45,048 nt of DNA, from contig CAIYEN010000156.1 of the NCBI GenBank assembly GCA_903925205.1, forward strand, positions 1-45,048, given 5' to 3'. The notes under the pieces were generated by a model that did not search any database, had not been told where the DNA came from, and saw nothing but the letters and a program-made list of their open reading frames with translations. Every line of letters starts with the position of its first letter. Within the stretch, counting starts at the first letter, position 1. The stretch comes from an uncultured Opitutia bacterium (GTDB lineage: Bacteria; Verrucomicrobiota; Verrucomicrobiia; Opitutales; UBA953). The translations under genes and the position numbers were made by a program. Of this stretch, positions 5,186-42,575 are shown one piece after another.

Positions 5186-6508
5186 TTAGCGGGTGACGCC
5201 AGTGGGCACCGTCTTGAAGATCCAGCCCTCGGCTTCCATGTCGATGGTGAGTCCGCGACCAGGCTTCTTAATCTCTTCAGGCAACGGTTCGGCGTTCGTA
5301 CGGAAAAGTTTTAGCGTCCCTTCGCCTTCGAACGTGCCGTTCACGCGGGAGCCCGAACGGGCGACCTCGATGGCGAGGTAGACGTCGAAGACGCCGCCCG
5401 GGGTTTCGCCGATGGCGATTTCGAGTGGGACCTTCGTGCCTTTAGGCGCCGTGATCCAGGGGCCGGCCTTGAGGCGGTTGAGGCTACCGGGCTTACGGTC
5501 GATTGGGAACTCCTTCGTCACGACCTGGTTGAAGTCTTTGTATTTCCCATCGGCGCCAACGACCATGTGTTCGTAGCCGTCGTCGAGCGCGATTTTGCGA
5601 TCCCAGCGGACCACGAGCCAGTCATCGCCGGACCCCACGAAACGGAAGGGGAGCGACTGCGGCACTTCGACGGTGGCCTTATAGTGCACGACCCAGCGGG
5701 AAGGCTTCACTTCTTTTTCCACCCCGTAAGCCTGGGGGGCGGCATCGGCCCCGCGGGAGGGAATGAAGACCTGCCCAGCAATCAAGGCTTCGGGGGCCCG
5801 GTAGTATTTCTGGAATTTACCGGGGCTCCAGCCGGACTGGAAGAAGTCCTTCACCGCTTCGCGGTAGGCACCGATACCCGATTGCGGCGCGCATTCGGTC
5901 GGGCTCTTATTGGAAGTCTGCTTCAAGTCGTAGAAAGTGCCGACCATCCCCGAAGAGCCCATCTTGGCGCCGAAGAGGGAGACGAAGTTCTTGCCGTTGC
6001 CGCGACCGACACCCATGCCAGAGCCGATACCGCCGCCGGAGCCGCCGCCGAAGCCCTTGGAGGAACCCCCGCCCATCAGGCCAGCGTTCATGGAAGAAAC
6101 GGCGACGGAAGGGACGTCGGGCAGGGCAATGGTTGCCGTCGTACTCTTGGACGTGATGCGCGTCGGCGTCTTGGCCGTGGTCTTCGGGTTCTTGGGCTGC
6201 AGGCGCGTCTTGAACTGCTTGGCCTTATCGCCCGCGGCACCGCCGCCGGAGCCGGTGGAGAAGGAGTTCGGGTCTTTCTTGGCCGATTCCTTGGACACGG
6301 AAATAATCAAGAACGCGGCGATCAGCACCAAAAAGATGTGGATGCCTACCGAGACCATGAAGCCTTCGCCGCCGACCTTCTGCCAGAACGTCCGCTTGGT
6401 CCGCTTTTGGCCCAGACCTTCCTCTTCTGGGGCCGCGTTATCCACCGCATCCAGGGGCGGGGGCGTGGTCGGCTCTTCGGGGGGGAGGGCTGGAGGGGTT
6501 TCGGACAT
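5186..6508 (-). CDS. Single-pass membrane protein with PA14-like C-terminal domain (paralogue 1)
   Basis: I do not recognise a named family. Of 440 residues, the first ~35 are proline- and acid-rich. A basic stretch (GQKRTKRTFWQKVGG) is followed by one transmembrane segment (GFMVSVGIHIFLVLIAAFLIISV, about residues 48-71). A lysine/threonine linker and a glycine-rich tract (GLMGGGSSKGFGGGSGGG) come next. The C-terminal ~230 residues are probably periplasmic; FRFVGSGDDWLVVRWDRK within them resembles the PA14-type fold, often linked to glycan binding. The topology (basic side in) predicts an N-in membrane protein. It is a tandem paralogue of the gene at 6596-7927 and probably its co-transcribed second gene. 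The function is unknown. Confidence 0.8.
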   Translation of the reverse strand: MSETPPALPPEEPTTPPPLDAVDNAAPEEEGLGQKRTKRTFWQKVGGEGFMVSVGIHIFLVLIAAFLIISVSKESAKKDPNSFSTGSGGGAAGDKAKQFKTRLQPKNPKTTAKTPTRITSKSTTATIALPDVPSVAVSSMNAGLMGGGSSKGFGGGSGGGIGSGMGVGRGNGKNFVSLFGAKMGSSGMVGTFYDLKQTSNKSPTECAPQSGIGAYREAVKDFFQSGWSPGKFQKYYRAPEALIAGQVFIPSRGADAAPQAYGVEKEVKPSRWVVHYKATVEVPQSLPFRFVGSGDDWLVVRWDRKIALDDGYEHMVVGADGKYKDFNQVVTKEFPIDRKPGSLNRLKAGPWITAPKGTKVPLEIAIGETPGGVFDVYLAIEVARSGSRVNGTFEGEGTLKLFRTNAEPLPEEIKKPGRGLTIDMEAEGWIFKTVPTGVTR

Positions 6509-6595
6509 ACCGGGGGTCTTCCTATTCTACCCCGATTATTTTCTAAACAACCCTATTCTGTTGTTTTTCAGTAAACCCAACGCAGCTGGCGTGTT

Positions 6596-7927
6596 TCACC
6601 GTGTAACCGACGTCTTCACCGGCTTGAAAATCCAATCCCCACCCGTCATATCAACGCCCGGGACGCTGGGATGGCCATTCTTGATGGCATCAGGCAACTC
6701 ATCGGTCGTCATCCGGAAAAGTCGGAGGTGTCCATCGGGCTTGCCGGAAGCATCGGCCACTTCGATGAGCACGATGGCGTAGAAAGTACCCCCGGGCGTT
6801 TCACCGATCACAATTTCCAAGGGCGTCTCCTTGTCTTTGGTTGCCGTGATCCAAGGGCCGCAGCGCAACGGCTTGCCGAGCTTGGACGGGTGGGTCTCGT
6901 CGAACGGCTTCTTCCCAAATCCTGGATAGATGTTTTCGTTGCCGACCACGTATTGACCGTAGCCGGAATCGAGGACCACCTTACGATCCCAGCGGATAAC
7001 GAGGAAGTCATCGCCCGAACCGACGAAGCGGAACTTCCCGCCCTGCGGTGGTTTGACGGCGCCCTTGTAGTGGGCGATCCAGCGGGAAGGTTTGCAGAGC
7101 TCGCCGACGCCATAGGCCTTGGGGGCTTCGGTGGCCGGGCAGGGGGGGATGAAGATTTGCGACGCGAGGAGCGTGTCGGGCGCGCGGAAGACGTCATTGA
7201 GGGCCGAAGGCGAGAACCCCTTGTCGAAGAACTCGTTCACTTCTTTGACGTAGAGGCCGATGGCGGCGCTGTTGGACGGGTCACCAAACTTTTCGGGGGC
7301 TCCCCCCATCATGGGGGTCGGCTTGCCGGACTTGTTTTGCTTAAAGTCGTAGAAGGTCCCCGGGAGGCCATTGACGGCCATCTTGCTCCCGAACACGGAG
7401 ACGAAGTTTTTACCGTTACCGCGACCCACGCCCATGCCGGAACCGATGCCACCGCCGGAGCCACCGCCGAAGCCCTTGGAGGAACCGCCGCCCATGAGGC
7501 CGGCGTTCATGGAAGAGACGGCCACCGTGGGGACGTCGGGCAGGGCAATCGTCGCCGTCGTGCTCTTAGAAGTAATGCGGGTCGGCGTCTTGGCCGTCGT
7601 CTTCGGGTTCTTCGGTTGGAGGCGCGTTTTGAATTGCTTGGCCTTATCACCGGCCGCACCGCCGCCTGAGCCCGTCGAGAAGGCGTTAGGGTCCTTCTTG
7701 GCCGACTCTTTGGATACGGAGATAATTAAGAACGCCGCGATGAGCACCAAAAGGACGTGAATGCCCACGGAGACCATGAAGCCTTCGCCGCCGACGCGTT
7801 GCCAAAATGTCCGCTTAGAGCGCTTCTGTCCTAAGCCCTCTTCCGTCTCGACCTCGGCAGGCGGGACCGGCGCCGCTGCGTCGGGCAGCGGAAGTTCTGG
7901 GGGTGCGGGGTCCTGGGGATTGGACAT
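6596..7927 (-). CDS. Single-pass membrane protein with PA14-like C-terminal domain (paralogue 2)
   Basis: This 443-residue paralogue of the neighbour at 5186-6508 has the same layout: proline-rich N-terminus, basic GQKRSKRTFWQRVGG, one membrane helix, lysine/threonine linker, glycine-rich tract and a PA14-like domain (KFRFVGSGDDFLVIRWDRK). From the basic stretch to the end of the glycine tract I count only about 8 differences in ~153 residues, while the C-terminal domains agree at only about half of positions. ATG at 7927 (MSNPQDPAPP) is chosen over the upstream in-frame starts because the other paralogue also begins MS followed by a proline-rich run. It is transcribed away from tdh. The role is unknown; glycan or envelope binding is a guess from the PA14-like fold. 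Confidence 0.8.
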   Translation of the reverse strand: MSNPQDPAPPELPLPDAAAPVPPAEVETEEGLGQKRSKRTFWQRVGGEGFMVSVGIHVLLVLIAAFLIISVSKESAKKDPNAFSTGSGGGAAGDKAKQFKTRLQPKNPKTTAKTPTRITSKSTTATIALPDVPTVAVSSMNAGLMGGGSSKGFGGGSGGGIGSGMGVGRGNGKNFVSVFGSKMAVNGLPGTFYDFKQNKSGKPTPMMGGAPEKFGDPSNSAAIGLYVKEVNEFFDKGFSPSALNDVFRAPDTLLASQIFIPPCPATEAPKAYGVGELCKPSRWIAHYKGAVKPPQGGKFRFVGSGDDFLVIRWDRKVVLDSGYGQYVVGNENIYPGFGKKPFDETHPSKLGKPLRCGPWITATKDKETPLEIVIGETPGGTFYAIVLIEVADASGKPDGHLRLFRMTTDELPDAIKNGHPSVPGVDMTGGDWIFKPVKTSVTR

Positions 7928-8055
7928 GAGCATAACGCTGTCGATTTGACCGAGCCCGCTCAACAAAAAATCACCCCAACGCTGGGCATTTCCTTTCCAC
8001 TTCCAGCCGTGCCCCTTACCTTAATTCGGGCCTAAACACCCAAGAACGACTTTTA

Positions 8056-27463: not shown

Positions 27464-30400
27464 ATGCGGATTTCTAAGTCTCTGTTGGTGGCCGCCGCTA
27501 TGCTTGCTTCCGCAGGCATTGCCCAGGCCCAGCAAAATGTGACCCAGGCCACCTGGATCGGCTCGGCCGGAGACGGCGGCACGGGGATTTGGGACAAATG
27601 GAGCACGGCCCCGACCGCGCACAACTACTGGCGGTCCACCAACTTGACGCCGCAGGTCTTGGTGTCGGGTGCACGCCTGACGAATGCCGCGAACTTGTTG
27701 TTCACCTACACGGGACCAGCCCTCGCCGCCGGCGCCACGAATGATATCCTGATCGATTCGAACATCATCTCGAGCCAGTCCCAAACGCTCCGCTTCCAGT
27801 CGTCCGGGTACCGTTTGCTCCCGGGTGCCTTTGCTTCGGGCATTCAGCCGACCACCAACAACTTCCAAGACATCGACCTGGCGCGTACGCTGGTCAATGC
27901 CCCGTACACCTCGGCTCCGAACGGCACCCTGCAGATTGGCGACGTCACCTTCACCGTGGCCGGGATTGTCGGCCCCGTTGCCGCACAGCCCTTCCTGACG
28001 CTGCGCAACCCGACGAGCTTCGGCGGTGCGATCACCGCGGTGAACGCGAACACCACGATTAACCTAGAGAGCTTCGTCGCTTCCACCATTTCGGGCACCT
28101 TCAAGGGCAACGGTAATATCGCCAAGACCGGTGGTGCCGTCCTGCAGTACCAGGGCTACACGGGCCGCATGTTTAGCTACGGTACCGACACGCGTCCGTA
28201 CTCTTACGTTCAGACGCTTCTCGGGCCAGCGATGAGCTATTCGCGCACCAACCCCGCGACTTACGGCATTCGCCCGCGCGATTTGGCACCGACCTTGCTC
28301 GTCAACGATGGTGGCAACAACGATCGTCTCGCTGGCCTCCAAGGCCAGATGCGCGTGGACGGCGGCCTGCTCATGGTGAGCGGTCACCTCAACATGTGGC
28401 ACGACTTTGGCACGACCGTGGATGGCAATATCCTCGCCGCGACCGAAGTCCCGACGCTCATCGCCAACATCGCCCCCGGCGCCGCTTCTTCCACCCTTAA
28501 TTACAACCTCGCTAAGCGCATGACCGGGGTTTCCTCGGTGGTGCTCAATGGCTCGGCGGAAATCAGCTTCACCAACACCCCGGTGAATGTCGGCACGGGC
28601 ACCAGCGCCCTACGTCTCAACTTCCTCCACAACCTCAAGGCCGGCGACAACAACGATCAGTTCCAGACGACCGTCACGACCGGTCCCGACGACAACTACC
28701 GTCTCGGTATTCACATCGACCAGGGCTTCGATGGCTCCGTCGGCATCCTCGCGGGTTCCGGCAAGGTCATCAAGACCGGTGCTGGCTCGTTGACCGTCCT
28801 TAACGACTCCCGCATGACCGGTGACTTCATCGCCGGCGGCGGCCGTACGGTCTTGGCGAGCGCCACGGGGCTCACCTTTGCCAACAGCAGTTCTTTCAAT
28901 ATCGCCGGCACGCAGGACACGAGCGACTCCAACGCCGCGACCACGACCGAAGGTAGCAAAGGGTTATCGCGCCGCGGCGCAGATATCCGTTACCAGGAAA
29001 CGCCCTCCAACCCGACCGGCGCTGATCCCCACGTGGACTATCGCCCGGCCTTGTTCCCTGACACTGGTACCGTGACCATCACGACCAACGGGGCTAACCA
29101 GTATACCGGCGTCTCGCGCACGGGCGCGGAAGTCGTCCTCATCGGCGATCAAACGGTCCGCAATTTCCAAGCGGATTTCGCGCTCAAGTCTAAGGGCTCG
29201 ACCAATTACGGCTCGGCCACCACGGGCGAAGTTTTCACTGCCGTGGATGCGGTGCGAACGGCGGCCGACGTGAATAATAAAGGTGAGCTCGTCATCGCGG
29301 GCACGGGCACAGGCTCGACCCTTTACCTCAACGGCAATACCCTGACGATTAATCAGGACGCCACCGGCCGCGATGGTTATTACAACGGCAGTATCTTTGG
29401 CGCGGACCTCACCACGGGCGTCGCCGGCGGCCGGATCATCAAGACCGGCGGCGGCACGCTCGTCTTCCTCCTGGAGAACGGCTCTTACGACTACACCGAA
29501 ATCCAAGGCGGTACGTTCATCGCGAACGTGCAGGGCCTCGGTCAGAAGGACGTCTTCATCGGTAATGGTGGTACCTTTGCCATCTTGCAGAACAACGCGG
29601 GCACCCTGTCGGCGAACCTTTCGGGTTCGGCCGGCTCCACCCTGAAACTCTTGGCTTCGGCGATGATTGATAACGGCAGTGGCGCCAAGATTGAGGTCAA
29701 CCCGGGCCGCGATCCAGGCCAAGTCGACATCATCAATGGCCAGGCCAACTTCTACGGCAACATCGTCGTTAATGATGGCGTCAACTTGTCCTTCTCGGGC
29801 GGTGCGAACAACACGTTCATCAACGCCAGCTCGATCACCCTCGACTCCGGTAACGCGCGCGAAACGGTCCTGAAGTTCGGTGACACCAATCAGCTCATCC
29901 GCAATCTCAGCGGCGACCTCCTCTCCCGTGTTGAACTCGGCCGCGGCGACATCACGCTCGAGCAGAACAGTTCCAGCGCTAACTTCCAGGGCTCGATCAC
30001 CGGCGTTGGTAGCTTGATCAAACAAGGCACGGCCAGCTTCACGCTCGTCGGTACGACGACCGCCGGTGCGATCAAGGACTCTTACTACGGTGCAACGATT
30101 GTGCGCCCAGGCGGTGCGCTCATTGCGGGCTCCGCCAACGCGACGCCCAATACCTCCGCCCTCGTGCTCGTGGGGGCAGGCACGTTCAACACCGCCGGCC
30201 TCAACCAGACCTTCGGTGGCCTCTTCGGCTCGGCGGCTTCGACGCTGAATATCGGTACCGCGACGGTGACCGTCGGATACACGCCAGCCCGGGCCGCCTT
30301 AATGGCCTTGGATCTCGCGGGTGCGAACCCCTTACTCGCCGATTACCTCGGGACCACGGACCAGGTTAACCCCGTACTCAACGCGGTCAGCTTTACGGCC

Positions 30401-33400
30401 ACTGGTGGTGCCCTGAATGCCACAACTATCACGACTGCCTCCACGGCCGGCCTCGCTGTCGGTCAAGTGCTCACGGGCACGGGCATTCAGCCGGGCACCC
30501 TCATCACGGGCATCGGTGCTGGCACCGTTAATATCAGTAAGCCGCTGACGGCCGCTGCGGCGGGCGCGATTGCCGCGACCACGACCGTGACCTTTACCCC
30601 GACCTCGGGTCTAGCGGGTGCGTCGCAGTTGACGGCGACCTCCTCGGCCGGCCTCGGCGTGGGGCAAATCATGGTGGGTACGGGCATCGCTGATGGCTCC
30701 TACATCACGGAAATCGTCGCGAACACCAGCTTCACGGTTAGCGCCGGCGCTTCGGGCACGACGACGCTTAAGACCGTCTCTTCGGCTGGCTTGGCCGTGG
30801 GCCAGACCATCGCGGGTACGGGCATTGCGTTGAACAGCAAGATTACCTCGATTACCCCGAACACCACGTTCTTCGCTACCGGCGGCACCTTGGGTACGCG
30901 CACCATTACCACGACCTCGACGACCGGGCTCTTTGTGGGGCAGACGCTGGTTGGCACGGGTATTCCCGTGGGCGCCACCATCACGGCGGTTACCCCGACG
31001 TCCATCACGATCTCCGCTTCGCTCACCGCTAAGGCTTCGGGCACCGTCACCGTCGGCGCCTTGGTCGGCCTCAGCAACGCCTTGACCGCGACGGCTTCGG
31101 GTACGGCGACGGTCAGTGCGCTGATTTCCCTGAACAACCCGCTCACGGCGACCCTCGCCGCGGTGCCAGTCAACGCCGGCGCCGTTCGCACCATCGACGT
31201 CTCGTCGCTCGGCCTCAACGCTGCCGAACTGAATACCCTCTACGCCGGCTCGACCACGATGTCGCAGCTGACGCGCCGCTACCTCTCGACGGTGGCCGTC
31301 GGCATGAATGTCGGCAGCTACGTGGCCCCGACCACGGACATCTCGTTCGCCAACTCCTTGTCCTTCGATGGGCAGTTGGTCGGCACGGGGACTTTCGTGA
31401 AATCTGGCACGGAGACCCTCTTCTTGCGCGGCCTCAGCACTGGCTTCACGGGCCAGGTCTTGGTCACCGGTGGCACGCTCGACATTTCCTTTGTTGGCGC
31501 CGTCAACAACCTCAGCAACGCGGCGGCCATCACGGTCAATGCGGGTGGCAACCTCGCGGTCACGGTCGACGACGTCTATGTCGCGGGCCCAAGCGCCGTA
31601 AAGCGCACACTGACCACGCCGGTTCTCGGCACCGGTAACTTCGTCAAGAATGGCGTCGGTTACCTCATCCTGAATCCGACCCTCGCCGCCGGCCAGGTCC
31701 CTTATTCCGGCACGACCATCGTCAATAATGGTTGGCTCGAAATGAACGCGCTCTCGACCAATGGGGCCGCCGTCATCAATTCCTTCAACGGCACCGCGGC
31801 GCACCTAGTGCTCAATGCGGCCAACGATGTCACCTACTCGGGTCTGGTGTCTGGGACGGGTGAACTCGTCATCCAAGCGGCGGCCGGCAAGACGCTGACC
31901 GCTGGCGGTTCGCTGACTCACACCGGCGGCACCAATGTCCTCACCGGTACGCTCCTCGCCCAGAACGGCTGGGCGGGTGCCACCACGGGTAATATTTCCG
32001 TCGCCGCGGGCGCAAAGGCTCGTCTCAACGTCGCGACCAACCTCGCTGCCACGGGCGTCTTTATCGGCGCTGGCACCATCATCAAGGAAGGCTCGGCATC
32101 CCTGACCCTGGGTACGGCGACGACGGCTTTCGGCGGCACCTACCAGTCTAACGCTGGCACGACAATCTTGGCTTCCGCCAACCTCTTCGGTGGCGCCAAT
32201 CCCACGGATTTGATTGCAGCCATTGACCTGCGCGGCAATTCGATCCTCGACCTCACGGCTGCGCAGACCTTCCGCAACCTCTCGGGTGAAGCGACGACCC
32301 AAATCGCCTATGGCGCCAACGGCGTCCTCATCACCCTGCCGATTGACAGCGGTGCAACGAACAGCTTCGCCGGACGCTTCACGCGTGCGGTGGGCGTGAC
32401 CGACGCCACCATCCTTAAGACCGGCGCGGGCACGTTGGACCTTTCCCCAACGGGCGGCGATAACCAGCTGACTTTAATTGGAGTAGCCGAAGGTCGCTTG
32501 GTCGGTACGGACGCGGGCTACCGCGGCGCTGACATCCAAGTTGGCGCAGGGGCCGAAGTCGCTTTCAACGCCCCGACCGCTGGGGTCGTGGCTACCTTTA
32601 ATAACAACATTTCCGGCTTCGGCGGTGCCGCTGGTACGGGCACGGTTGTCAAGGTTGGTGCGGGCGAGGCCCTCCTCGGCTCCGTCAACCTCAACGCCAA
32701 TACCCCGGACTTCAAGGTCGAGCAGGGAATCCTGACCTTGACCGATAGCCGCGCTGGTAGCGGTCTTCCGATGCTGACGGCTAACGTTTCCGACGGTGCC
32801 ACCTTCCGCGTCAAGCTTGCGAACGCTCGCACCCTCGGTTCCGAAATCACCGGAACAGGTATCCTTGACCTGCAGGCCTCGTCGGCGGGCGTTAAGCTCG
32901 TCACCGTCACCTCGCAGCCGTCGGTCACCACGACCAACATCGGTAACAACGTCCGTCTCGATGTTTCTGGTATCAACGCGATCACTGGCATCACGGCGGA
33001 CACGGGTTCGTTCCTGCAGATTGGCGCCCTCGGCGCAGGTCGCACGCTGACCCTCACGCAGGCCACGGATGGTGTCTTTAACGGCACAATCGAAGGCACG
33101 GCAAACTTCACCGTGAAGGGCGCTGGTCTCTTCCGCTACGCCAATAGCCTCCAGGCGACGACGGTCGGGACGGTCACCGTCGATGGCGGTTTCCTCGGCG
33201 TGAACGTCGACAACACCAAGGCAATCACGTTGGCCACGGCGACGACCGGCACGACGAAGTTGGGCGTGTACGTCGCTCCCGCCGGCAATTCTATCTACAA
33301 CGGTACCCTAACCGGCGCCGCTGGCGCGGCGCAGATGGTCAAGCTGGGTGCCGGCACCCTCAACCTGACGAGCGGCGTGACGTCTTCCCTGAAGGATGAC

Positions 33401-35428
33401 CTGTTCGCTTCTTACGATGTACGCGAAGGCACCCTGGCCACCACCTTGGTAGCGGATCCGCTCAACCCGACCGGCCCCGGCCTCATCCTCCCGAATTCCC
33501 TGAACGTCGGCCGTGCGGTCACGCTCTCCGGCGGCACCTTGGCGCTGACGGTTGGCGCGACGGGCGGTACCTTACTGTCGGGCGCTGGTTCGACCAATAC
33601 GGGCAACCTGAATATCACCACCGCCAATGTCGGCGACGCCTCGCTCTTGAACGTCCTCGGCAATGTCTCCGGTAACGTGAGCGTCGCGGGTGGCACGGTG
33701 CTTAAGTTGGGCTCGTCGGGGGCCACCTTGTTGACGATCGCGGGCGACCTCGGCGTCTCCGCCGGTTCTAAGTTGACGGGCTCGGCGAATGTCGGCGGCA
33801 ACCTCACGGTCGCGGCTGGTTCGACGCTCGCCCCCGGTTACTCTCCGGGCACGTTTAACGTCACGGGCAACTTCACGCTCGCCGGCACGGCGAACATGGA
33901 AGTCTCGGGCAATTCCCTCGGCGGTCTCAAGAACGACTCCGTCACCTTCTCCGGCACGGCCGATCTCTCGGGCGGCAGCGTCCTCGTCCAGCGCTGGAAC
34001 GACGGCACGCTCCCGGCGGTGGCGCCAGCCTTTGGCCAGCGCTTCGTCCTCTTCAAGGGTACCGCGACGCCTGCGGTGGGCGCCAACCTCGTCTCCACTT
34101 ACTTTACCGGCACGATGCCGGCCAGCGTCACGACCGATGACAGCACCGGTCGTTACTTGGTCGTCGCGCCGGCCGCCGTCGATGCGGGCGCCGTCGCTTC
34201 AGGTTACGATGGCCTGATCCACAATGCGGACGGCCTCGTCCATAAGGCGAACGAGGCAGCGGTCTATGCGGTGCGTGACCAAAGCGCTTACGCGGTTGCG
34301 GGCCTCGATGCGGGCATCGTTTCCTACGTCCAGGCGGCGACGAAGGTGGCTGCTGGGACGGTCTATGTTCCCGGTGCCATTAACAACGCTGGCTCCGTGG
34401 CCACCCTCGATCCTTTGGGCGCGCGCTTGATGATCATGACCGACGCACAGTTGACGCCGGCCTTGCTCAGCCTCCAGCCCGCTGCCTTGGCCGCGATTCC
34501 GGCTTCGTTGGCCCTCGGGCAGCGTGCCGAGTCGGGTGCCTTGCTGCGTCGCCTCGAGATGCGTCGCTACGACCGCGCCGGTTATAGCGTCTATTATAAT
34601 GAAGGCTTCGCCCTCGCGACCTCTTCGAGCTTCAAGGGTGGTTCCGGTTCCGGCGCCACGCCCTTCGACTCGACCGTCACGGGTGCCATGGGCGGCCTAA
34701 TTAAGGACCTCAATCCGTGGTCGGTCGCGGGCTTCTCCGCCGGCTACACCAAGAGCAAGTCCGACCTCACGGCTGGGGGCGCTTCGGCTGGCTCAGTCAG
34801 CGGCAACGCTTACCGCCTCACGGGCTTCTTCTCTTCGATGCTCGGCGACAAGAAGGACTCGGTCTTCGTCGATGCCGGCGTTTCGGTCGGCACTTCGACC
34901 AACAAGTCTTCGCGAACGACCTTCCTCGGCACGGAAACCGCTAGCCCGAAGGCCAACTCCTACGGGGCATTTGCTCGCTTCGGTGCAGGTTACGCGACGA
35001 AGGCCGGCGTCAGCTTTTCGCCTTATGTCGGCCTCGACATGGCGAAGGTCAGCGGGAGCGCCTTCGATGAAGCCGGGGACGCCACCAAGCTGAAGGTAAG
35101 TTCCTACTCCTACACGTCGGCTCGGGCCACCGTCGGCACGGGCATGAGCTGGCTCAGCGTTGGCGATGGTGAGACCCTCAAGTTCTCCATCGACTTCGAA
35201 GCCTTCTCCGAACTCGGCGGCGGTAAGTCGACCGACATCTCCGCGAGCCTGGGTGGCATCGAATTCACTTCTTCCGCCAATGTCTCGGCGGGTAGCGGTT
35301 TCCGAGTCGCCCCGTCGTTCACCTACGGACCAAACCCAGATTCGGCGTACTACCTGACGCTCTCGCTGGAAAAGGCCGGGGCTACGCAGACCACCGGCTT
35401 CGAAATCGGCTACCGCCGTCGCTTCTAA
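27464..35428 (+). CDS. Giant autotransporter adhesin with PATR repeats (2654 residues)
   Basis: A type V secreted protein. MRISKSLLVAAAMLASAGIAQA is a Sec signal peptide. The passenger (to ~residue 2350) is built from autotransporter-associated beta-strand repeats such as VIKTGAGSLTVLNDSRMTGDFIAGGG, RIIKTGGGTLVFLLENG and MVKLGAGTLNLTSG, about ten in all. An inserted module with GLAVGQ-like starts recurs at residues 996, 1063, 1109 and 1155. The barrel (~2360-2654) is preceded by RRLEMRRYDRA and ends GYRRRF, with a terminal aromatic as needed for BAM insertion. I saw no cysteine on reading. The leader has no Shine-Dalgarno sequence. The adhesin role is inferred from family. Confidence 0.93.
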   Translation: MRISKSLLVAAAMLASAGIAQAQQNVTQATWIGSAGDGGTGIWDKWSTAPTAHNYWRSTNLTPQVLVSGARLTNAANLLFTYTGPALAAGATNDILIDSNIISSQSQTLRFQSSGYRLLPGAFASGIQPTTNNFQDIDLARTLVNAPYTSAPNGTLQIGDVTFTVAGIVGPVAAQPFLTLRNPTSFGGAITAVNANTTINLESFVASTISGTFKGNGNIAKTGGAVLQYQGYTGRMFSYGTDTRPYSYVQTLLGPAMSYSRTNPATYGIRPRDLAPTLLVNDGGNNDRLAGLQGQMRVDGGLLMVSGHLNMWHDFGTTVDGNILAATEVPTLIANIAPGAASSTLNYNLAKRMTGVSSVVLNGSAEISFTNTPVNVGTGTSALRLNFLHNLKAGDNNDQFQTTVTTGPDDNYRLGIHIDQGFDGSVGILAGSGKVIKTGAGSLTVLNDSRMTGDFIAGGGRTVLASATGLTFANSSSFNIAGTQDTSDSNAATTTEGSKGLSRRGADIRYQETPSNPTGADPHVDYRPALFPDTGTVTITTNGANQYTGVSRTGAEVVLIGDQTVRNFQADFALKSKGSTNYGSATTGEVFTAVDAVRTAADVNNKGELVIAGTGTGSTLYLNGNTLTINQDATGRDGYYNGSIFGADLTTGVAGGRIIKTGGGTLVFLLENGSYDYTEIQGGTFIANVQGLGQKDVFIGNGGTFAILQNNAGTLSANLSGSAGSTLKLLASAMIDNGSGAKIEVNPGRDPGQVDIINGQANFYGNIVVNDGVNLSFSGGANNTFINASSITLDSGNARETVLKFGDTNQLIRNLSGDLLSRVELGRGDITLEQNSSSANFQGSITGVGSLIKQGTASFTLVGTTTAGAIKDSYYGATIVRPGGALIAGSANATPNTSALVLVGAGTFNTAGLNQTFGGLFGSAASTLNIGTATVTVGYTPARAALMALDLAGANPLLADYLGTTDQVNPVLNAVSFTATGGALNATTITTASTAGLAVGQVLTGTGIQPGTLITGIGAGTVNISKPLTAAAAGAIAATTTVTFTPTSGLAGASQLTATSSAGLGVGQIMVGTGIADGSYITEIVANTSFTVSAGASGTTTLKTVSSAGLAVGQTIAGTGIALNSKITSITPNTTFFATGGTLGTRTITTTSTTGLFVGQTLVGTGIPVGATITAVTPTSITISASLTAKASGTVTVGALVGLSNALTATASGTATVSALISLNNPLTATLAAVPVNAGAVRTIDVSSLGLNAAELNTLYAGSTTMSQLTRRYLSTVAVGMNVGSYVAPTTDISFANSLSFDGQLVGTGTFVKSGTETLFLRGLSTGFTGQVLVTGGTLDISFVGAVNNLSNAAAITVNAGGNLAVTVDDVYVAGPSAVKRTLTTPVLGTGNFVKNGVGYLILNPTLAAGQVPYSGTTIVNNGWLEMNALSTNGAAVINSFNGTAAHLVLNAANDVTYSGLVSGTGELVIQAAAGKTLTAGGSLTHTGGTNVLTGTLLAQNGWAGATTGNISVAAGAKARLNVATNLAATGVFIGAGTIIKEGSASLTLGTATTAFGGTYQSNAGTTILASANLFGGANPTDLIAAIDLRGNSILDLTAAQTFRNLSGEATTQIAYGANGVLITLPIDSGATNSFAGRFTRAVGVTDATILKTGAGTLDLSPTGGDNQLTLIGVAEGRLVGTDAGYRGADIQVGAGAEVAFNAPTAGVVATFNNNISGFGGAAGTGTVVKVGAGEALLGSVNLNANTPDFKVEQGILTLTDSRAGSGLPMLTANVSDGATFRVKLANARTLGSEITGTGILDLQASSAGVKLVTVTSQPSVTTTNIGNNVRLDVSGINAITGITADTGSFLQIGALGAGRTLTLTQATDGVFNGTIEGTANFTVKGAGLFRYANSLQATTVGTVTVDGGFLGVNVDNTKAITLATATTGTTKLGVYVAPAGNSIYNGTLTGAAGAAQMVKLGAGTLNLTSGVTSSLKDDLFASYDVREGTLATTLVADPLNPTGPGLILPNSLNVGRAVTLSGGTLALTVGATGGTLLSGAGSTNTGNLNITTANVGDASLLNVLGNVSGNVSVAGGTVLKLGSSGATLLTIAGDLGVSAGSKLTGSANVGGNLTVAAGSTLAPGYSPGTFNVTGNFTLAGTANMEVSGNSLGGLKNDSVTFSGTADLSGGSVLVQRWNDGTLPAVAPAFGQRFVLFKGTATPAVGANLVSTYFTGTMPASVTTDDSTGRYLVVAPAAVDAGAVASGYDGLIHNADGLVHKANEAAVYAVRDQSAYAVAGLDAGIVSYVQAATKVAAGTVYVPGAINNAGSVATLDPLGARLMIMTDAQLTPALLSLQPAALAAIPASLALGQRAESGALLRRLEMRRYDRAGYSVYYNEGFALATSSSFKGGSGSGATPFDSTVTGAMGGLIKDLNPWSVAGFSAGYTKSKSDLTAGGASAGSVSGNAYRLTGFFSSMLGDKKDSVFVDAGVSVGTSTNKSSRTTFLGTETASPKANSYGAFARFGAGYATKAGVSFSPYVGLDMAKVSGSAFDEAGDATKLKVSSYSYTSARATVGTGMSWLSVGDGETLKFSIDFEAFSELGGGKSTDISASLGGIEFTSSANVSAGSGFRVAPSFTYGPNPDSAYYLTLSLEKAGATQTTGFEIGYRRRF

Positions 35429-35462: not shown

Positions 35463-38400
35463 ATGAAACTCTCCCGTAAGTTCCTCGTCCTCGCCTCGGC
35501 CGCCCTCGTGGCTGGCCTGCCATCAGCGCAAGCGGACGTCACCGTTAATTATTCTTCCGGTTCGCCGACCGCCCTCACGGGGACGGCGCTCACCGCGACG
35601 AACCTCGGCGCCCCGGGCCTACTCGCGCAGCCGACGGCCATTCAGCAAGGGCTGAAGACGGTCACCTCGCTCAATGTCGGCGCCGGGACGACCCTGACGA
35701 TCAACCAGCTCGTCGACGCGACGACGACCACCAAGTTCTTAAGCGCCAATAACGCGGCGCTCATCGACCCGCCGGTGGGCAACTTCTCGACGTTGCCCGT
35801 CTTGGTGAAGACCGGTGGTGCTACGTTGCAGTACGACGCTTTCGCCAGTTTCGATTACCTCGGTAACAACACCTTCAAGATTGCCCCGCCGGCGGCCCCA
35901 GTGTTGCCGAACGACTTGCGTGCTCAGGGTGCTTTCTCTGGCCTGGTCATCGTCAATCAAGGCACCTTGCAGGTCTCCGGTTACCTTAACCAGTGGGCTA
36001 ATTACGGCGTGGCCAATCCGGCCAACTTCACCGCCCGCATGGAAGGCGCGGGCGCCGTCATCCTCCAGGGCTCGGCGACGCTGAGTTTCCAGGGGACGGC
36101 CTATAACGTCGTCGGTGTTGGCCCATCTTTGGGCGACAATCAGCTCTCCAATCCCTCGAGCCCGCTGCTCTTCCGTCTCAATTACGTCCATAACCTCTAT
36201 TCCGGCACGCAGGCCAACTTCCTCGCCGGCAACGATGGCACAGATGTGAACACGGTCCTAGATGTGGGTAAGGACGCTGATTACATCGCCAATATCCACA
36301 TCGACGACGGTGTCGTTGGTTCGGTCGGCCGCATCGATGGTGCGGGCCGCGTCTACAAGACGGGTTCGGGCTCCTTCACTATTCTTAACACCAGCCGCGT
36401 CACGGGCGACGTGTTCGTCGGTGGCGGTGACCTCGTCCTTTCCGACCCGAACAACCTGGCGCTTCGCCTCGCCAACTCGGTCAACCTCATCGGCTCGGAT
36501 GGCTTCCATACGGGTCTCGCCCGTGCCGACGCCGCTAATGACTCCGGCGGCACGACGGAGTGGCGCCCCGGTTACCTGCCGGGCCGTTCCGCCCCACAGC
36601 TCAGCATCACTACGAACCAGTCGATTCGCAACTTCCAGTCCCTCTGGGGCGAAGTCGCCACGAACATGTGGATCGCGGGCACGGGTGCTGGCACGGTCGT
36701 GGATATCGCCTCGGGCACGTCGTTGACGATCCTGCAAGACGCCAACCGCGACGGTTACTTCACGGGCAGCATCAACGGCGGCCTTGGTCGACTGGTTAAG
36801 GAAGGTGTGGGCTCGTTGGCCTTGATGGGCCAAAGCTCCTCGGTCGGTGAAATCGCCATCAACGGGGGCAAGATTATCGCTAACGTCCAGAGCTTGGGTT
36901 ATGGCCGCGTCGTCATCGGCGCGGGCGGCACGCTCAGCATCGTTCAGAATAATGCGGGCACGCTCCGTGCCCAGATCAACGGCGCCGCTGGGTCGACCCT
37001 CACGGTTACCCCGCAGGACCTCATCGTTAGCACGGTCTCGGCCGGCGCGAACGCCAACAGCATCCCCCCGAACGTCGGCAACGGCCAGCTCGGCGTGATC
37101 GACATTTATAACCAGCAACAGGACTTCTACGGGCAGGTCATCGTCAAGGACGGTATCACGTTGGCCTTCTCCTATGGCAAGGATGACACCTTCATCCACG
37201 CTTCGAATATCGTGCTCAACTCTGGCACGAGCGGTCGCGAGACCACGATTCGCTTCAATGACACGACCCAGACGGTCAATAACCTCTCGGGCGATGCCAA
37301 TACGCGCATCGAACTCGGTCGCGGTTCCGTCACGATTAACCAGACGGCCAACACGACCTATGCGGGCAAGGTCACCGGCGCTGGCAATCTCCTTAAGGGC
37401 GGTAACAGTAGCATGACCCTGTCGGGCCTCAGCAGCTACTACGGCGCCACCGTCATCAAGGCGGGCTCCCTGGCCTCCACCGCGGCGGATGGCATTATCA
37501 ATAGCTCGGGCCTGGTTCTGTTGAACGGCACGACCTTCACCGCGGCCGCGAACCAGACGGTCGGCGCGCTCTTCGGCCAAGCCGGCTCGGTGGTCTCTTT
37601 GCAGAACGGTGCCACGTTGACCGTCGGTAAGACGACGGCCCAAGTGACCCAGCTGAATAATGCCTTGGCGAGCTTCACGGGCGTTTCGCCGGACGCTAAC
37701 CCGGCTTACTTCCTCCAGACGGACCTCGGCGCGGCCGCCGTCGCGGGGATGTCCCAGGCCAACACCATCGGCTTCCTGCGCACCGCGATGGGCGAGCCGA
37801 CGAGCTTCACGCCGGTTGTCGGCTCAGGCACCACCCTCATCGTTAAGAATACCTTCGGCCTCACGGTCGGCCAGGCCGTCACCGGCGCCGGCATCAGTGC
37901 CGCTACCACCATCTCCGCGGTCTTGGCCGCGCCTTCCGCCCAAGCCGCGCAGACCGCGGCGGGTACGGTCATTCCGCTGGCGAACACCACCGGTTTCCTT
38001 GTCGGCATGCCGGTCTCCGGCACGGGCATTCCTGCCGGTACCACGATTACCAGCGTGGGCGCTGGCTCCATCACGCTGAGCACGGCGACTTCGGTCGCCG
38101 CCACGGGCATGATCAGCGGTACTGCCGCGGTCACGTTAAGCAATGCCCTGACGGGCTCCGCCGCGGGCGCCTATGCGTTGGCCCCCGTCACAACCGATGC
38201 GCAGGTCCTCGGTTTCCGTGGTGTCATCACCGGTAACGGTGGTCTCACCAAGGTCGGCAACCAGACTTTGGTCTTGTTGACTCCCAGCACCTACACCGGC
38301 GCCACCAACGTCAACGGCGGCACCCTGCAGATTGACCATAACTCGCTGACCAACACGTCGGGTATCAATGTCGGCGTCGCGGGTAACTTGTCGGTCAACG

Positions 38401-41400
38401 TCACGAGCGGCTCCGCCACTTTCACCCGTCAGCTCAGCGGTTCTGGGTCGTTGACCAAGGTGGGCGCTGGTACGCTCGTCATCAACACCTCCACGGGCTG
38501 GGTGAGCGGTGCGATCAACATCCGCGCCGGCCTCCTGGAGTTCAACCCAGGCACCTTGTCGGCCATTACCGGCGGCATCTTGAACGTCGACCGCGGTGGT
38601 TCCTTCCTCATCAACACCCCGACCGACCTCGCATGGACTGGGAGCCTGACTGGTTCCGGCACGGTGACCAAGATCGGTGCGGGCACGCTGACCGTCATTG
38701 GCGGCGTTAACATGGCCGACCCAGTTCTCGGTGCAGGTCTCCTCGATGTGCAAGTGGGCAAGGTCTATGGCTCGAATCTTCCGTCCGCCTTCGGTCCGCC
38801 GGCGGCTTTTGGGGTGGTGCAGCTCGCCGCCGGCACCACCTACCGCGACACCGTTGCCAGCACGACGGCCTCGCAGACGGCCCTCAGTTCTTTGCTCAAC
38901 GTCGGCAGCACCGTCGGCTTCGCGGTCGGCCAGACCGTGAGCGGCACGGGTATCCAGCCGGGCTCCAAGGTCGTTTCGTTGACCGAAAACTCCATCACCC
39001 TCAGCGCGGTGACCACGGCCCTGGCCGCCGGTACGGTGAAGGTCGAAGAGTCCTTCGGGGCTTGGCTCTTCCAGGCGGGTACGCAGACGGTCGCTGGCGC
39101 TACCGTTGGCGTCACGTCCACCGCCGGCCTGCAGGTCGGCATGCGTGCCTTCGATAACAGTGTCACTGGTTATGCTGGCCTGCTCGGCACCATCGTCGCC
39201 CTCGACGATGTCGCCTCGACCATTACCTTGAGCGCGCCGACCGCGGCCGCCTTGAACGGTCCGTTGGCCTTCCAGCTGGGTGATGTCCGTGGTGCTGGTA
39301 AGTTTGAGAAAGCCGGCAATGGCACGCTCACCTTGAATGTCCCGCTGTCGCTTACCGGTTCGGTAGAGGTCCTTGGTGGCACCTTGGTCGTGAACACGGA
39401 ATCGGCTTTCCATAATGCCTCCGCCATCTCCCTCGGTGCCGGCGCGACGCTGGATGTCTCGGGCTTCGACCAGGACTTGGCCAACGTCACGAGCGATGCG
39501 GCTTCCACGCTGATTGGTGCGGGTTCGACGCTGACCTTGAAGGCTTCGGCGGGTGCGACCACCACCTACAGCGGACGCATCACCGGGGCCCCGGACATCG
39601 TCTTCAATGAAGTCCGTCCGTCGGGTAGCACGGCTGCCCTCGGCACGCTGAACCTCCTCCGCCCCGCCGCTTCGGCGAACGCGATTAACTCCATCGACGT
39701 CCAGTCGGGTAGCCTTATCGGCACGATCGCGGGCTTCGGTGGTGCGACCCTGAACGTCGCCGCGGGTGCTAAGATTGGTTTTAACAATGACGACGTCGCC
39801 GTGGCGGAAACCTTCACGGGTCCGGTGACGGGTGCCGGCACCATCTTGAAGACCGGCGCTGGCCAGATCACCCTATCCAATGGCGGCACCACGGCTTCCG
39901 CTTACGAAGTCTTGGGCGGTAAACTCACGGTCCTGGACACGCGTGCCAATGGGGTCGCCAGTGCCGCGATTGACCTAATCAACGCGACGATCGCAGCCGG
40001 TTCGACGCTGGAAGTTCGTTTGGCTGGCTTCCGTGAACGTAACCTTGGCGCCCAGATTTTGGGCCTTAGCCCAACCTCGCAGGGCACGTTGCAGATTACC
40101 AACACGACCAACAATAACTCCAATGTCTACCTGACGTCTGCCGCCTCGTTGGCCGCGGTCACGTTGGGTGATAAGGTCACCTTGCACCAGAACAGCCAGA
40201 GCTCCATCGCGGGGGTCAATGGTTCGTCGGGGGCAGAGTTAAACTTCAACACCGGCGGTGCCGTCACCATCAATCAAGCGATTGATACCAGCTTCGTTGG
40301 CACGGTCGCCGGCGTGGCTTCGCAGTTAACCATTGTCGGTCCGGGTCGTGCGGGCTTCACGAACGCTGCCCTCTCTACGCAGCTCGGCGCCAACATCACT
40401 TTGGCGGTAGGTTCGGGTGCGACCGCGGGTAACCTGGAGATTGATTCACGCTTCAACAACGCGTCACCGATCACGCTCAACGCGGGATCCTTGGCCGTCA
40501 ATGTGGCTGCGGGTTCACCAGCGACCTTTAATACGACGCTCTCGGGCGCGGCTAATGCCGTCAAGTTCGTGAAGACCGGTTTGGGCACGCTGAACGCCAA
40601 CCTCGGCGTTGTCGCTGACCCGATCTTCTCGGCCTACGAGATTGAGGCGGGCACGCTCTTGGTCACGCCGGTCGCCAACCAGATTCTCGGTGGCCGGAGC
40701 GTTTCGCTCAAGGGGGGTAGCCTCTCCATCCAGCAAGATGCCTCCGCGCCGACCATGGGCACCGCGGGCTTCACCACCAGCAGCAGCGCGGGCATGTTGA
40801 ATGTCCTCGGCGCGGCGAGCGGCCCCACGGGCATCTTGACCATCACTGGTTCCTTCGCGGGCGGCCTTAGCCTACAGTCGGGTGCTAATGTCGTCCTCGG
40901 TACGACCGGTGCCAACGCCATCGCCGTCACGGGCGGTGTGACCGTCAGCGCGGGCAGCACCTTGGGTGGCCAAGCCATCATTGGCACCACGGGTACTAAT
41001 GCGAACTTCGTCAATAACGGCACCGTCGCTCCAGGCTACTCGCCTGGTGTCGTCACGGTGAACGGCAATGTGACCAACACGGGTGCGTTCATCATGGAGT
41101 TGTCGGCCACGGCGGCCAATGGCACCTATAATGACCAAGTACTCTTCACGGGTACGGCCGACCTCAATAATGGCGGCACCGGCTCGATTACCCTGAAGCA
41201 GTTCGGCGCCGCCGCCCCGGCCTTTGGCCAGCGCTTCGTCCTCTTCAAGGATACGGTCGGTGCCAATGCGTCCAGCTTCACTTCGGTGATCCCTGCATTG
41301 CAGATCACCTCGCAGGGCATCAGTCCGTTCCGCTACGTCCTCTCTTATCCGACGGATGCGAGCGGTCAGGCGGGCGAACTCGCTGTCTACGTCGTCCGCG

Positions 41401-42575
41401 CTCCGGCCGATTACAACGCCTTCAAGGCGCCCACCTCGCTCTTGGCTTCGGTGAAGTCCATCACCCAAGTGGACTCGGTCCTCGTGAATAACGGTGCCGA
41501 CACCCTGCTGGGGACGGCGGATGACGTGTATCGTTCCACGCCGGCTGCTTCGTACAACCTCGTCGGCGGTGGCTTGGCCATCCTCAGCGACGCGGGTCTC
41601 CAGACTGCCCTCGACAATCTCACGCCGTATGGTGCCTCGGGTACCGTCACGGCCGCTGGCACGCTCTTCCAGCAGAACATCGACAACGCGTCGCGTCGCC
41701 TCGAGCTCCGTCGTTTTGACCGCGCTAGCCTGACGATTCTCTCCAACGAGTGGTACGTCGACACGATTGGCGGTAAGGCCACGGTTGGGGCCTCGGGTGA
41801 GTTGCAGAATAAGGCTACGACCTACGGCGTCACTGCTGGCTACACCACGCAGGTCGGCGTCGATGGCGTCGCCGGTTACGCCCTGACTGCTCAGCACTTC
41901 TCGCTCTCCAGCGATACCTCCACCCGCGCTTCGGGCAATGGCTTTGCTGCCAACGCCTACGTCGGCACGGTGGCGATGCGTGGCCAGCTCTCGCTCGACG
42001 CGGGCGTCTCGGTCTCGCACCTGTCCTCGTCGATCACCCGCGACTCGGTCATTGGTTCGGGCAACACGAACGCCTCTTCGCCGAGCGCTTTGACCTACGG
42101 CGTCTGGGGTCGTCTCGGCACCGTCATCGCAATGAAGTCTTCCGACACCTTCATCACACCGTTCATTGGCGTGCAGTATGCTTCGACCAAGTTGTCGAGC
42201 CTGGCGGAATCCGGCCAGGCCGACGCGATGTCCGTCACGTCCGGCTCGGTTTCGCAGTCCTCGGTCCGTGCCGGCGCTGGCCTTCACCATATGTGGGAAG
42301 AAGGCCGTGGTGATTGGCGCTACCGCCTGTCGCTGGACCTCGGCTACGTGAAGCAGTTCTCGGGTGAGTTCGGTGACTTCACGTCTTCGAACTCGACCGG
42401 CATCAACACGACTTACACCTCCAGCCTGCGCGTGAGCGCTGGTTCGGGGTTCTATGTGAGCCCGTCCTTGAACTTCGGTCCGGACGAGAATTCCACCTTC
42501 TCGATTGGTTTGTCCTACGAACAGGGTAACGGCAATTCGATCGGCGTGAACGCGGGCTACCGTAAGCGCTTCTAA
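35463..42575 (+). CDS. Second giant autotransporter, paralogue of the upstream gene (2370 residues)
   Basis: Signal peptide MKLSRKFLVLASAALVAGLPSAQA is followed by a PATR-type passenger (RVYKTGSGSFTILNTSRVTGDVFVGGG, RLVKEGVGSLALMGQ, LTKVGAGTLVINT, ILKTGAGQITLSNGG and others). The C-terminal barrel (~2090-2370) is introduced by RRLELRRFDRA and ends GYRKRF. Segments match the upstream protein closely in order (FYGQVIVKDGITLAFS, NNLSGDANTRIELGRGSVTI, APGYSPG, APAFGQRFVLFKDT), so the pair is a tandem duplication. GLxVG-type modules occur at residues 799, 844, 1152 and 1222. The gap to the first gene is 34 bases without a terminator, so one transcript is likely. Confidence 0.93.
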   Translation: MKLSRKFLVLASAALVAGLPSAQADVTVNYSSGSPTALTGTALTATNLGAPGLLAQPTAIQQGLKTVTSLNVGAGTTLTINQLVDATTTTKFLSANNAALIDPPVGNFSTLPVLVKTGGATLQYDAFASFDYLGNNTFKIAPPAAPVLPNDLRAQGAFSGLVIVNQGTLQVSGYLNQWANYGVANPANFTARMEGAGAVILQGSATLSFQGTAYNVVGVGPSLGDNQLSNPSSPLLFRLNYVHNLYSGTQANFLAGNDGTDVNTVLDVGKDADYIANIHIDDGVVGSVGRIDGAGRVYKTGSGSFTILNTSRVTGDVFVGGGDLVLSDPNNLALRLANSVNLIGSDGFHTGLARADAANDSGGTTEWRPGYLPGRSAPQLSITTNQSIRNFQSLWGEVATNMWIAGTGAGTVVDIASGTSLTILQDANRDGYFTGSINGGLGRLVKEGVGSLALMGQSSSVGEIAINGGKIIANVQSLGYGRVVIGAGGTLSIVQNNAGTLRAQINGAAGSTLTVTPQDLIVSTVSAGANANSIPPNVGNGQLGVIDIYNQQQDFYGQVIVKDGITLAFSYGKDDTFIHASNIVLNSGTSGRETTIRFNDTTQTVNNLSGDANTRIELGRGSVTINQTANTTYAGKVTGAGNLLKGGNSSMTLSGLSSYYGATVIKAGSLASTAADGIINSSGLVLLNGTTFTAAANQTVGALFGQAGSVVSLQNGATLTVGKTTAQVTQLNNALASFTGVSPDANPAYFLQTDLGAAAVAGMSQANTIGFLRTAMGEPTSFTPVVGSGTTLIVKNTFGLTVGQAVTGAGISAATTISAVLAAPSAQAAQTAAGTVIPLANTTGFLVGMPVSGTGIPAGTTITSVGAGSITLSTATSVAATGMISGTAAVTLSNALTGSAAGAYALAPVTTDAQVLGFRGVITGNGGLTKVGNQTLVLLTPSTYTGATNVNGGTLQIDHNSLTNTSGINVGVAGNLSVNVTSGSATFTRQLSGSGSLTKVGAGTLVINTSTGWVSGAINIRAGLLEFNPGTLSAITGGILNVDRGGSFLINTPTDLAWTGSLTGSGTVTKIGAGTLTVIGGVNMADPVLGAGLLDVQVGKVYGSNLPSAFGPPAAFGVVQLAAGTTYRDTVASTTASQTALSSLLNVGSTVGFAVGQTVSGTGIQPGSKVVSLTENSITLSAVTTALAAGTVKVEESFGAWLFQAGTQTVAGATVGVTSTAGLQVGMRAFDNSVTGYAGLLGTIVALDDVASTITLSAPTAAALNGPLAFQLGDVRGAGKFEKAGNGTLTLNVPLSLTGSVEVLGGTLVVNTESAFHNASAISLGAGATLDVSGFDQDLANVTSDAASTLIGAGSTLTLKASAGATTTYSGRITGAPDIVFNEVRPSGSTAALGTLNLLRPAASANAINSIDVQSGSLIGTIAGFGGATLNVAAGAKIGFNNDDVAVAETFTGPVTGAGTILKTGAGQITLSNGGTTASAYEVLGGKLTVLDTRANGVASAAIDLINATIAAGSTLEVRLAGFRERNLGAQILGLSPTSQGTLQITNTTNNNSNVYLTSAASLAAVTLGDKVTLHQNSQSSIAGVNGSSGAELNFNTGGAVTINQAIDTSFVGTVAGVASQLTIVGPGRAGFTNAALSTQLGANITLAVGSGATAGNLEIDSRFNNASPITLNAGSLAVNVAAGSPATFNTTLSGAANAVKFVKTGLGTLNANLGVVADPIFSAYEIEAGTLLVTPVANQILGGRSVSLKGGSLSIQQDASAPTMGTAGFTTSSSAGMLNVLGAASGPTGILTITGSFAGGLSLQSGANVVLGTTGANAIAVTGGVTVSAGSTLGGQAIIGTTGTNANFVNNGTVAPGYSPGVVTVNGNVTNTGAFIMELSATAANGTYNDQVLFTGTADLNNGGTGSITLKQFGAAAPAFGQRFVLFKDTVGANASSFTSVIPALQITSQGISPFRYVLSYPTDASGQAGELAVYVVRAPADYNAFKAPTSLLASVKSITQVDSVLVNNGADTLLGTADDVYRSTPAASYNLVGGGLAILSDAGLQTALDNLTPYGASGTVTAAGTLFQQNIDNASRRLELRRFDRASLTILSNEWYVDTIGGKATVGASGELQNKATTYGVTAGYTTQVGVDGVAGYALTAQHFSLSSDTSTRASGNGFAANAYVGTVAMRGQLSLDAGVSVSHLSSSITRDSVIGSGNTNASSPSALTYGVWGRLGTVIAMKSSDTFITPFIGVQYASTKLSSLAESGQADAMSVTSGSVSQSSVRAGAGLHHMWEEGRGDWRYRLSLDLGYVKQFSGEFGDFTSSNSTGINTTYTSSLRVSAGSGFYVSPSLNFGPDENSTFSIGLSYEQGNGNSIGVNAGYRKRF

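Follow-up and report, generated by a model that had tools for sequence, protein, structure and literature searches.

The twin genes and their surroundings

The window, that is, the whole stretch of 45,048 nucleotides analyzed here, carries two adjacent paralogous genes on its minus strand, twins A and B (table 1). In both products an N-terminal part that we call the module, made up of a basic edge, a predicted transmembrane (TM) helix, a Lys/Thr-rich linker and a Gly-rich tract, is followed by a C-terminal head. A and B form a two-gene unit of their own, with no neighbors on the same strand. On the plus strand they are flanked by genes for an aldo/keto reductase, an alcohol dehydrogenase and an amidohydrolase on one side and, on the other, by those for a zinc-type alcohol dehydrogenase, probably tdh, and for an aminotransferase-fold enzyme that is probably kbl. 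Neither twin matched anything in Pfam or NCBIfam, even at an E value of 1, and a profile of the twins gave no useful match among the sequences of solved structures. Elsewhere in the window, two giant open reading frames (ORFs) lie side by side on the plus strand (27464-35428 and 35463-42575; 2654 and 2370 aa), the first of them with no Pfam match.

Table 1. Features of the twin genes, in window coordinates
Feature	Position	Strand	Basis or remark
Twin A (module + PA14-like head)	5186..6508	-	440 aa; ORF, homologues, AF2 model
Twin B (module + second PA14-like head)	6596..7927 (or 7933)	-	ORF; translation may instead begin further upstream, at a TTG at 7966
Twin A module (TM helix, linker, Gly tract; residues 44-176)	5981..6379	-	putative conversion tract
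Twin B module (limits as in A)	7400..7798	-	putative conversion tract
Twin A predicted TM helix, residues 49-75	6284..6364	-	AF2 model
Twin A S-x3-H motif (Ser53, His57)	6338..6352	-	TonB/TolA-like motor-docking signature
Twin B S-x3-H motif	7757..7771	-	
Twin A Lys/Thr-rich linker, predicted disordered	6074..6283	-	AF2 pLDDT 23-44
Twin A Gly-rich tract	5981..6073	-	sole linker part with real conservation among orthologues as well as paralogues
Twin A predicted PA14-fold head, residues 185-436	5201..5956	-	predicted model and fold comparison
Asp295-Asp296 in twin A head	5621..5626	-	position of PA14 Asp-Asp motif; unchanged among heads of types A, B and C
Twin B PA14-like head	6611..7375	-	homology to A head

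Divergence of the twins in the window genome

The initial annotation described a near-identical N-terminal part joined to heads that agree at about half of their positions, and our alignments bear this out; the pattern is not due to chance. The modules differ at only 5-6 of 133 residues (96% identity; dN 0.02, dS 0.72, hence a dN/dS of about 0.03), against 49% identity over the remaining 254 aligned residues, that is, the heads (dN 0.52, dS 1.10). The edge of the module is sharp: in 15-codon windows, nucleotide identity is 80-93% inside and mostly 42-69% just outside. The many synonymous differences noted earlier in the shared part were also recovered, with 35 of 83 fourfold degenerate sites differing between A and B. 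From these differences it had been argued that no very recent conversion took place, which is right for the window genome; as a dismissal of gene conversion altogether, the argument fails on the trees and the homogenized DNA of the relatives.

Gene conversion across the genus

Six genomes of the genus carry both A and B. Within these genomes the modules of A and B are 95-99% identical with a dS of 0.10-0.72, and the heads of the same pairs have a dS of 0.64-1.79. Outside the window genome the twin-to-twin dS of the module is low (0.10-0.40), and low synonymous divergence in the linker, as a mark of recent conversion, is what the initial annotation itself had named as refuting its reading. In the tree of modules, A pairs with the B of its own genome (support values of 98/97 in BS10, 99/95 in hypo, 98/99 in G017 and 83/91 in G032), and a single clade of A modules is rejected (AU test, p 1e-50). 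In the tree of heads, A, B and a third type, C, separate into one group apiece; trees that group the heads by genome are rejected (p-AU 9e-61), and so is the pairing of the A and B heads of the window genome (p-AU 1e-8).

In BS10 and hypo, the module DNA of A and B agrees at 98-100% of positions along some 75 codons (about codons 50-128; 15-codon windows), with identities of 42-69% just outside the module. Among the relatives, identities of 89-100% give way to values below 72% no more than about 10-15 codons from the module end. Because synonymous sites were made identical as well, which is beyond the reach of selection at the protein level, these patterns indicate that the module was very probably homogenized between the tandem genes by gene conversion, that is, by concerted evolution. 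Conversion is confined to tandem neighbors, as unlinked module copies with VWA-like heads group by type and not by genome. In the window genome, the sister grouping of the A and B modules is weakly supported (71/23), and their dS of 0.72 is about that of the split from the nearest relatives (0.73-0.84), which makes the last homogenization there an old one.

Two loci of relatives contain a third tandem PA14-headed copy, C (L039, 5233-9332; L040, 5241-9323). Its head is only about 32% identical to the heads of A and B, and its module is 90-95% identical to theirs. In genome G021 (L038/L044), B is split into two ORFs (L038, 6970-8558) by a frameshift or an assembly error, and A is intact.

Constraint on the module

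Between distant orthologues, the module as a whole evolves no more slowly than the head, with 66-74% identity against 75-79% (up to 83% in single head pairs); for twin A of the window and of BS10, the values are 72% and 79%, respectively. The segments of the module differ widely in this respect. The TM helix is the fastest-changing part (48% identity), the Lys/Thr-rich linker reaches 68-69%, and the Gly-rich tract, about 31 residues long, is 94-95% identical and thus more conserved than the head. Higher conservation of the linker than of the folded domain, which the initial annotation had put forward in its title as a general property, does not extend to orthologues, in which both linker and helix fall below the head and the linker drifts freely, the other outcome that the initial annotation had named as refuting its reading; the generalization went wrong because the comparison was between paralogues. 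More broadly, comparing paralogues within one genome can mistake gene conversion for constraint.

The Gly-rich tract also keeps 94% identity when A is compared with an unlinked VWA-headed copy of the same genome, against 62% for the rest of the linker. As 32-45% of its fourfold sites changed between orthologues, its conservation reflects real selection at the protein level. A second element under constraint lies in the helix, where the S-x3-H motif holds while the remaining positions drift. His is present in 106 of 106 module helices and Ser in 101 (otherwise Ala in four and Thr in one). All 64 copies from the genus have the complete motif, and in distant members of the class His is found in 42/42 and Ser in 37/42. 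In the SHLS motif of TonB, Leu stands at H+7 and Ser at H+11. The module helices do not share these two residues, with Ala (96/106) or Gly (9/106) at H+7 and Val or Ile (101/106) at H+11. No Asp or Glu occurs from H-4 to H+11 in any of the 106 helices. The constraint that had been perceived in the module is thus real, though it concerns only a few positions and the Gly-rich tract.

Heads attached to the module

A class-wide search for the helix and linker as a separable unit, as proposed in the initial annotation, recovered them with several kinds of C-terminal domain. The 42 class-level module proteins comprise 21 with PA14-like heads, 11 with cyclase-like repeats, nine with VWA-like heads and one that is cut off; the cyclase and VWA labels come from simple sequence patterns, with Pfam support for some of the proteins tested (SQHop_cyclase_C in three, two of them above the cut-off; VWA in L131 and L124). 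All 21 PA14-like heads are homologous to those of the twins (E values of 1e-9 to 1e-45).

The AF2 model of twin A, built from 14 sequences, predicts the helix, a disordered stretch at residues 76-184 (pLDDT of about 23-44) and a beta-rich head with pLDDT mostly of 75-94. In fold comparisons this predicted head matched PA14 sugar-binding domains (Foldseek E value of 8e-7; Z up to 11.7 over 166-174 residues) at only 8-14% sequence identity, and the search with the Pfam PA14 model included returned no family for the twins at E<=1. By the predicted model, the head of the twins is a PA14 fold. Its Asp-Asp pair, the one feature of Ca-dependent sugar binding that is seen, occupies the position of the PA14 metal/sugar motif, as in the Flo/Epa PA14 lectins. 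Glycan binding by the head is possible on these grounds, at somewhat less than an even chance.

The twins do not have the VWA MIDAS motif D-x-S-x-S. In the corresponding heads of other module proteins from the genus, the D, S and S of MIDAS are invariant, and the profile match to the VWA heads of the class is weak (32 columns, E 2.7e-4). Since this MIDAS-like start is the sole support for the assignment, we refer to them as VWA-like. Such a head is present at two loci of the window genome. At one locus of this genome (L042, G000:C184, 5402-13241), and likewise at L046, L049 and L052, a VWA-headed pair of module genes directly follows pilB/gspE-like and pilC/gspF-like genes and precedes genes of about 470 and 310 aa.

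An ExbB/ExbD-type motor as the probable shared partner

The initial annotation guessed that the conserved part binds a shared partner, and such a partner very probably exists. Three lines of evidence now give the guess substance, namely the S-x3-H motif, the position of module genes beside exbB-exbD-exbD in relatives, and the co-occurrence of module and motor. TonB and TolA carry Ser-x3-His as their docking signature, and vWA proteins of this topology in the PVC group have been modeled to dock through the His (PMC12204202). For the system left unassigned in the initial annotation, an ExbB/ExbD-type motor is thus the most likely partner, and the module proteins are probably motor-docking transducers.

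The module was found in 70 of 384 genomes of the class, distributed over 31 genera, in numbers that reach at least ten per genome. In most motor-containing loci a module gene directly follows exbB-exbD1-exbD2 (L106, L111, L115, L116, L118, L119, L130-L133, L137, L139 and L140), and likewise in L112 and L121. The PA14-headed gene itself adjoins the motor in L118, L130, L132, L137 and L121, which ties this type of head directly to the motor. Among the 46 genomes with placed module hits, 33 have the module downstream of the cognate ExbB at a distance of no more than 4.5 kb. Of the 384 genomes, 61 have both the module and the cognate ExbB type, nine the module only, two the motor only and 312 neither. 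The association is strong, but a Fisher value from these counts overstates independence, since the genomes are related and most of the motors behind the ExbB query were module-linked ones.

The window genome has three ExbB-type loci. C134 contains tolQ-tolR and then a TolA-like gene whose match to NCBIfam TolA is below the cut-off, C232 contains a plain ExbB-type pair, and C251 contains TPR-TPR-exbB-exbD-exbD with no transducer gene alongside. TonB is encoded separately (C91). The ExbB type of the module-linked motors occurs only once in this genome, at C251, whose motor is the closest relative that those motors have here. No motor gene lies within the window, and none adjoins a module gene in the window genome or at the loci of the genus that we examined; as the motor of the genus sits apart, on another contig, its assignment is based on homology and co-occurrence. 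It is an even chance that one motor serves all module proteins of the window genome.

The orphan motor operon (L071, G000:C251, 3-4754) is closely followed by a threonine-synthase-like gene that runs toward it. A connection with the Akkermansia mucin locus, through the likeness of a TPR protein of the genome's own motor operon to NCBIfam Mul1B, was rejected (25 bits against a cut-off of 75). In five genomes with a second, weaker ExbB type, the ExbB loci contain no module gene. Several ExbB matches carry flags for an in-frame TGA; in G252 (L110) the match runs about six bases past the called ORF end, and the TGA looks like an ordinary stop codon.

Origin and function of the twins

We consider it likely that the twins are TonB-like force transducers of one shared motor, whose modules are near-identical through gene conversion and selection. 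The S-x3-H motif, the modular architecture, the linkage to exbB-exbD-exbD in relatives, the co-occurrence and the homogenization are all read from the sequences, and to these are added the predicted helix, disordered spacer and PA14 fold. Each twin would be a paralogous, force-transducer-like protein of the inner membrane, with a short basic cytoplasmic tail, a single TM helix bearing the docking motif, some 110 disordered residues as a spacer able to cross the periplasm, and the PA14-fold head. The lone orphan ExbB-ExbD-ExbD of C251 would drive several such transducers by means of the proton-motive force, and the heads may grip a glycan or a glycosylated partner at the peptidoglycan or the outer membrane. 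The near-identity of the modules would have two layers: adjacent genes recurrently convert each other up to the point where the heads have lost homology, and purifying selection holds the docking residues and the Gly-rich tract. In its widest form, with a single ExbB-ExbD-ExbD in a branch of Verrucomicrobiota powering up to at least ten interchangeable transducers per genome, all with the same docking module but with PA14, VWA or cyclase-like heads, and conversion keeping the modules of neighbors compatible, the proposal is tentative and slightly short of an even chance.

The low dN/dS of the window twins' module would also be expected if the entire linker were held by purifying selection as a surface that binds a common partner and no gene conversion took place. 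The Gly-rich tract fits such an account: its identity reaches 94% between A and a VWA copy not linked to it, and about 95% in distant orthologues in spite of changes at 32-39% of fourfold sites. Between the same distant orthologues, however, the Lys/Thr-rich linker (69%) and the TM helix (48%) lie below the head, and the module trees group by genome with synonymous sites homogenized too, which makes this account quite unlikely. For the module as a whole it is refuted, and it stands only for the Gly-rich tract and the S, H, L and A positions of the helix.

The remaining accounts concern function. The twins might be ordinary membrane-anchored periplasmic lectins whose helix is an anchor only, with ExbB/ExbD uninvolved in this genus, as the resemblance of their heads to sugar-binding domains and the lack of motor genes in the window and beside module genes at the genus loci examined would allow. 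We regard this as unlikely, given that the genus keeps S-x3-H in all of its copies while the rest of the helix freely changes, and that it retains one copy of the motor type to which the module is linked elsewhere. Service to a type IV pilus or type II secretion machinery is suggested by the ORFs of 559-561 and 413-415 aa immediately before the VWA pair in L042, L046, L049 and L052, identified in L042 as T2SSE and T2SSF by Pfam. It is nevertheless very unlikely, as the twins are not near pil/gsp-type genes, the VWA pair occurs without pil genes in L048, L053 and L056, and elsewhere the module is linked to exbB-exbD-exbD.

TonB and TolA are usually regarded as two fixed devices. The twins have in common with them the Ser-x3-His positions, a single N-terminal helix, a long disordered spacer and an ExbB/TolQ-type motor. 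They differ in having a predicted PA14 fold in place of a TonB_C or TolA C-terminal domain, neither of which was found with Pfam or NCBIfam, and in the replacement of the Leu and Ser of SHLS by Ala and Val/Ile; moreover, the window genome has a separate TolA-like protein and a separate TonB. We thus place the twins in the motor-docking force-transducer type, and not in TonB or TolA proper. The PA14 sugar-binding domains (MpAFP PA14, Flo1/Flo5 and Epa1) share the predicted fold (Z about 11 over 166-175 residues) and the Asp-Asp motif with the twins' head, but the latter is carried on an inner-membrane arm, has low identity to them and gives no Pfam PA14 match.

A closer parallel is found in the PVC group, in which vWA proteins with TolA/TonB topology, encoded downstream of TPR-tolQ-tolR-tolR, have been proposed as force transducers (Williams-Jones et al. 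2025; PMC12204202). Like the twins, these proteins have a TM helix with the motif His, a disordered spacer and a globular head; the motor neighborhood is common to the module genes of relatives, and part of the module family has a VWA-like head. The module family is clearly of the same kind. The twins differ in their PA14-fold heads and other members of the class in their cyclase-like heads, and in the genus the module genes are dispersed, several per motor, and homogenized by gene conversion. The second family described in that work, TPH-vWA, has an acidic proton-binding TM residue, which the module helices lack. The terms "PA14" and "prenyltransferase" are absent from the text of PMC12204202; what our data add are the PA14 and cyclase-like heads, the dispersed layout of several heads per motor in the genus, and the apparent concerted evolution of the docking module.

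With heads so distributed, the motor-docking arm looks like a reusable socket, fitted several times with unrelated periplasmic heads, the glycan-type PA14 among them, and one motor may serve many arms. If so, the twins and their relatives would extend the newly described vWA transducers and would be candidates for force-driven work on polysaccharides in Verrucomicrobiota.
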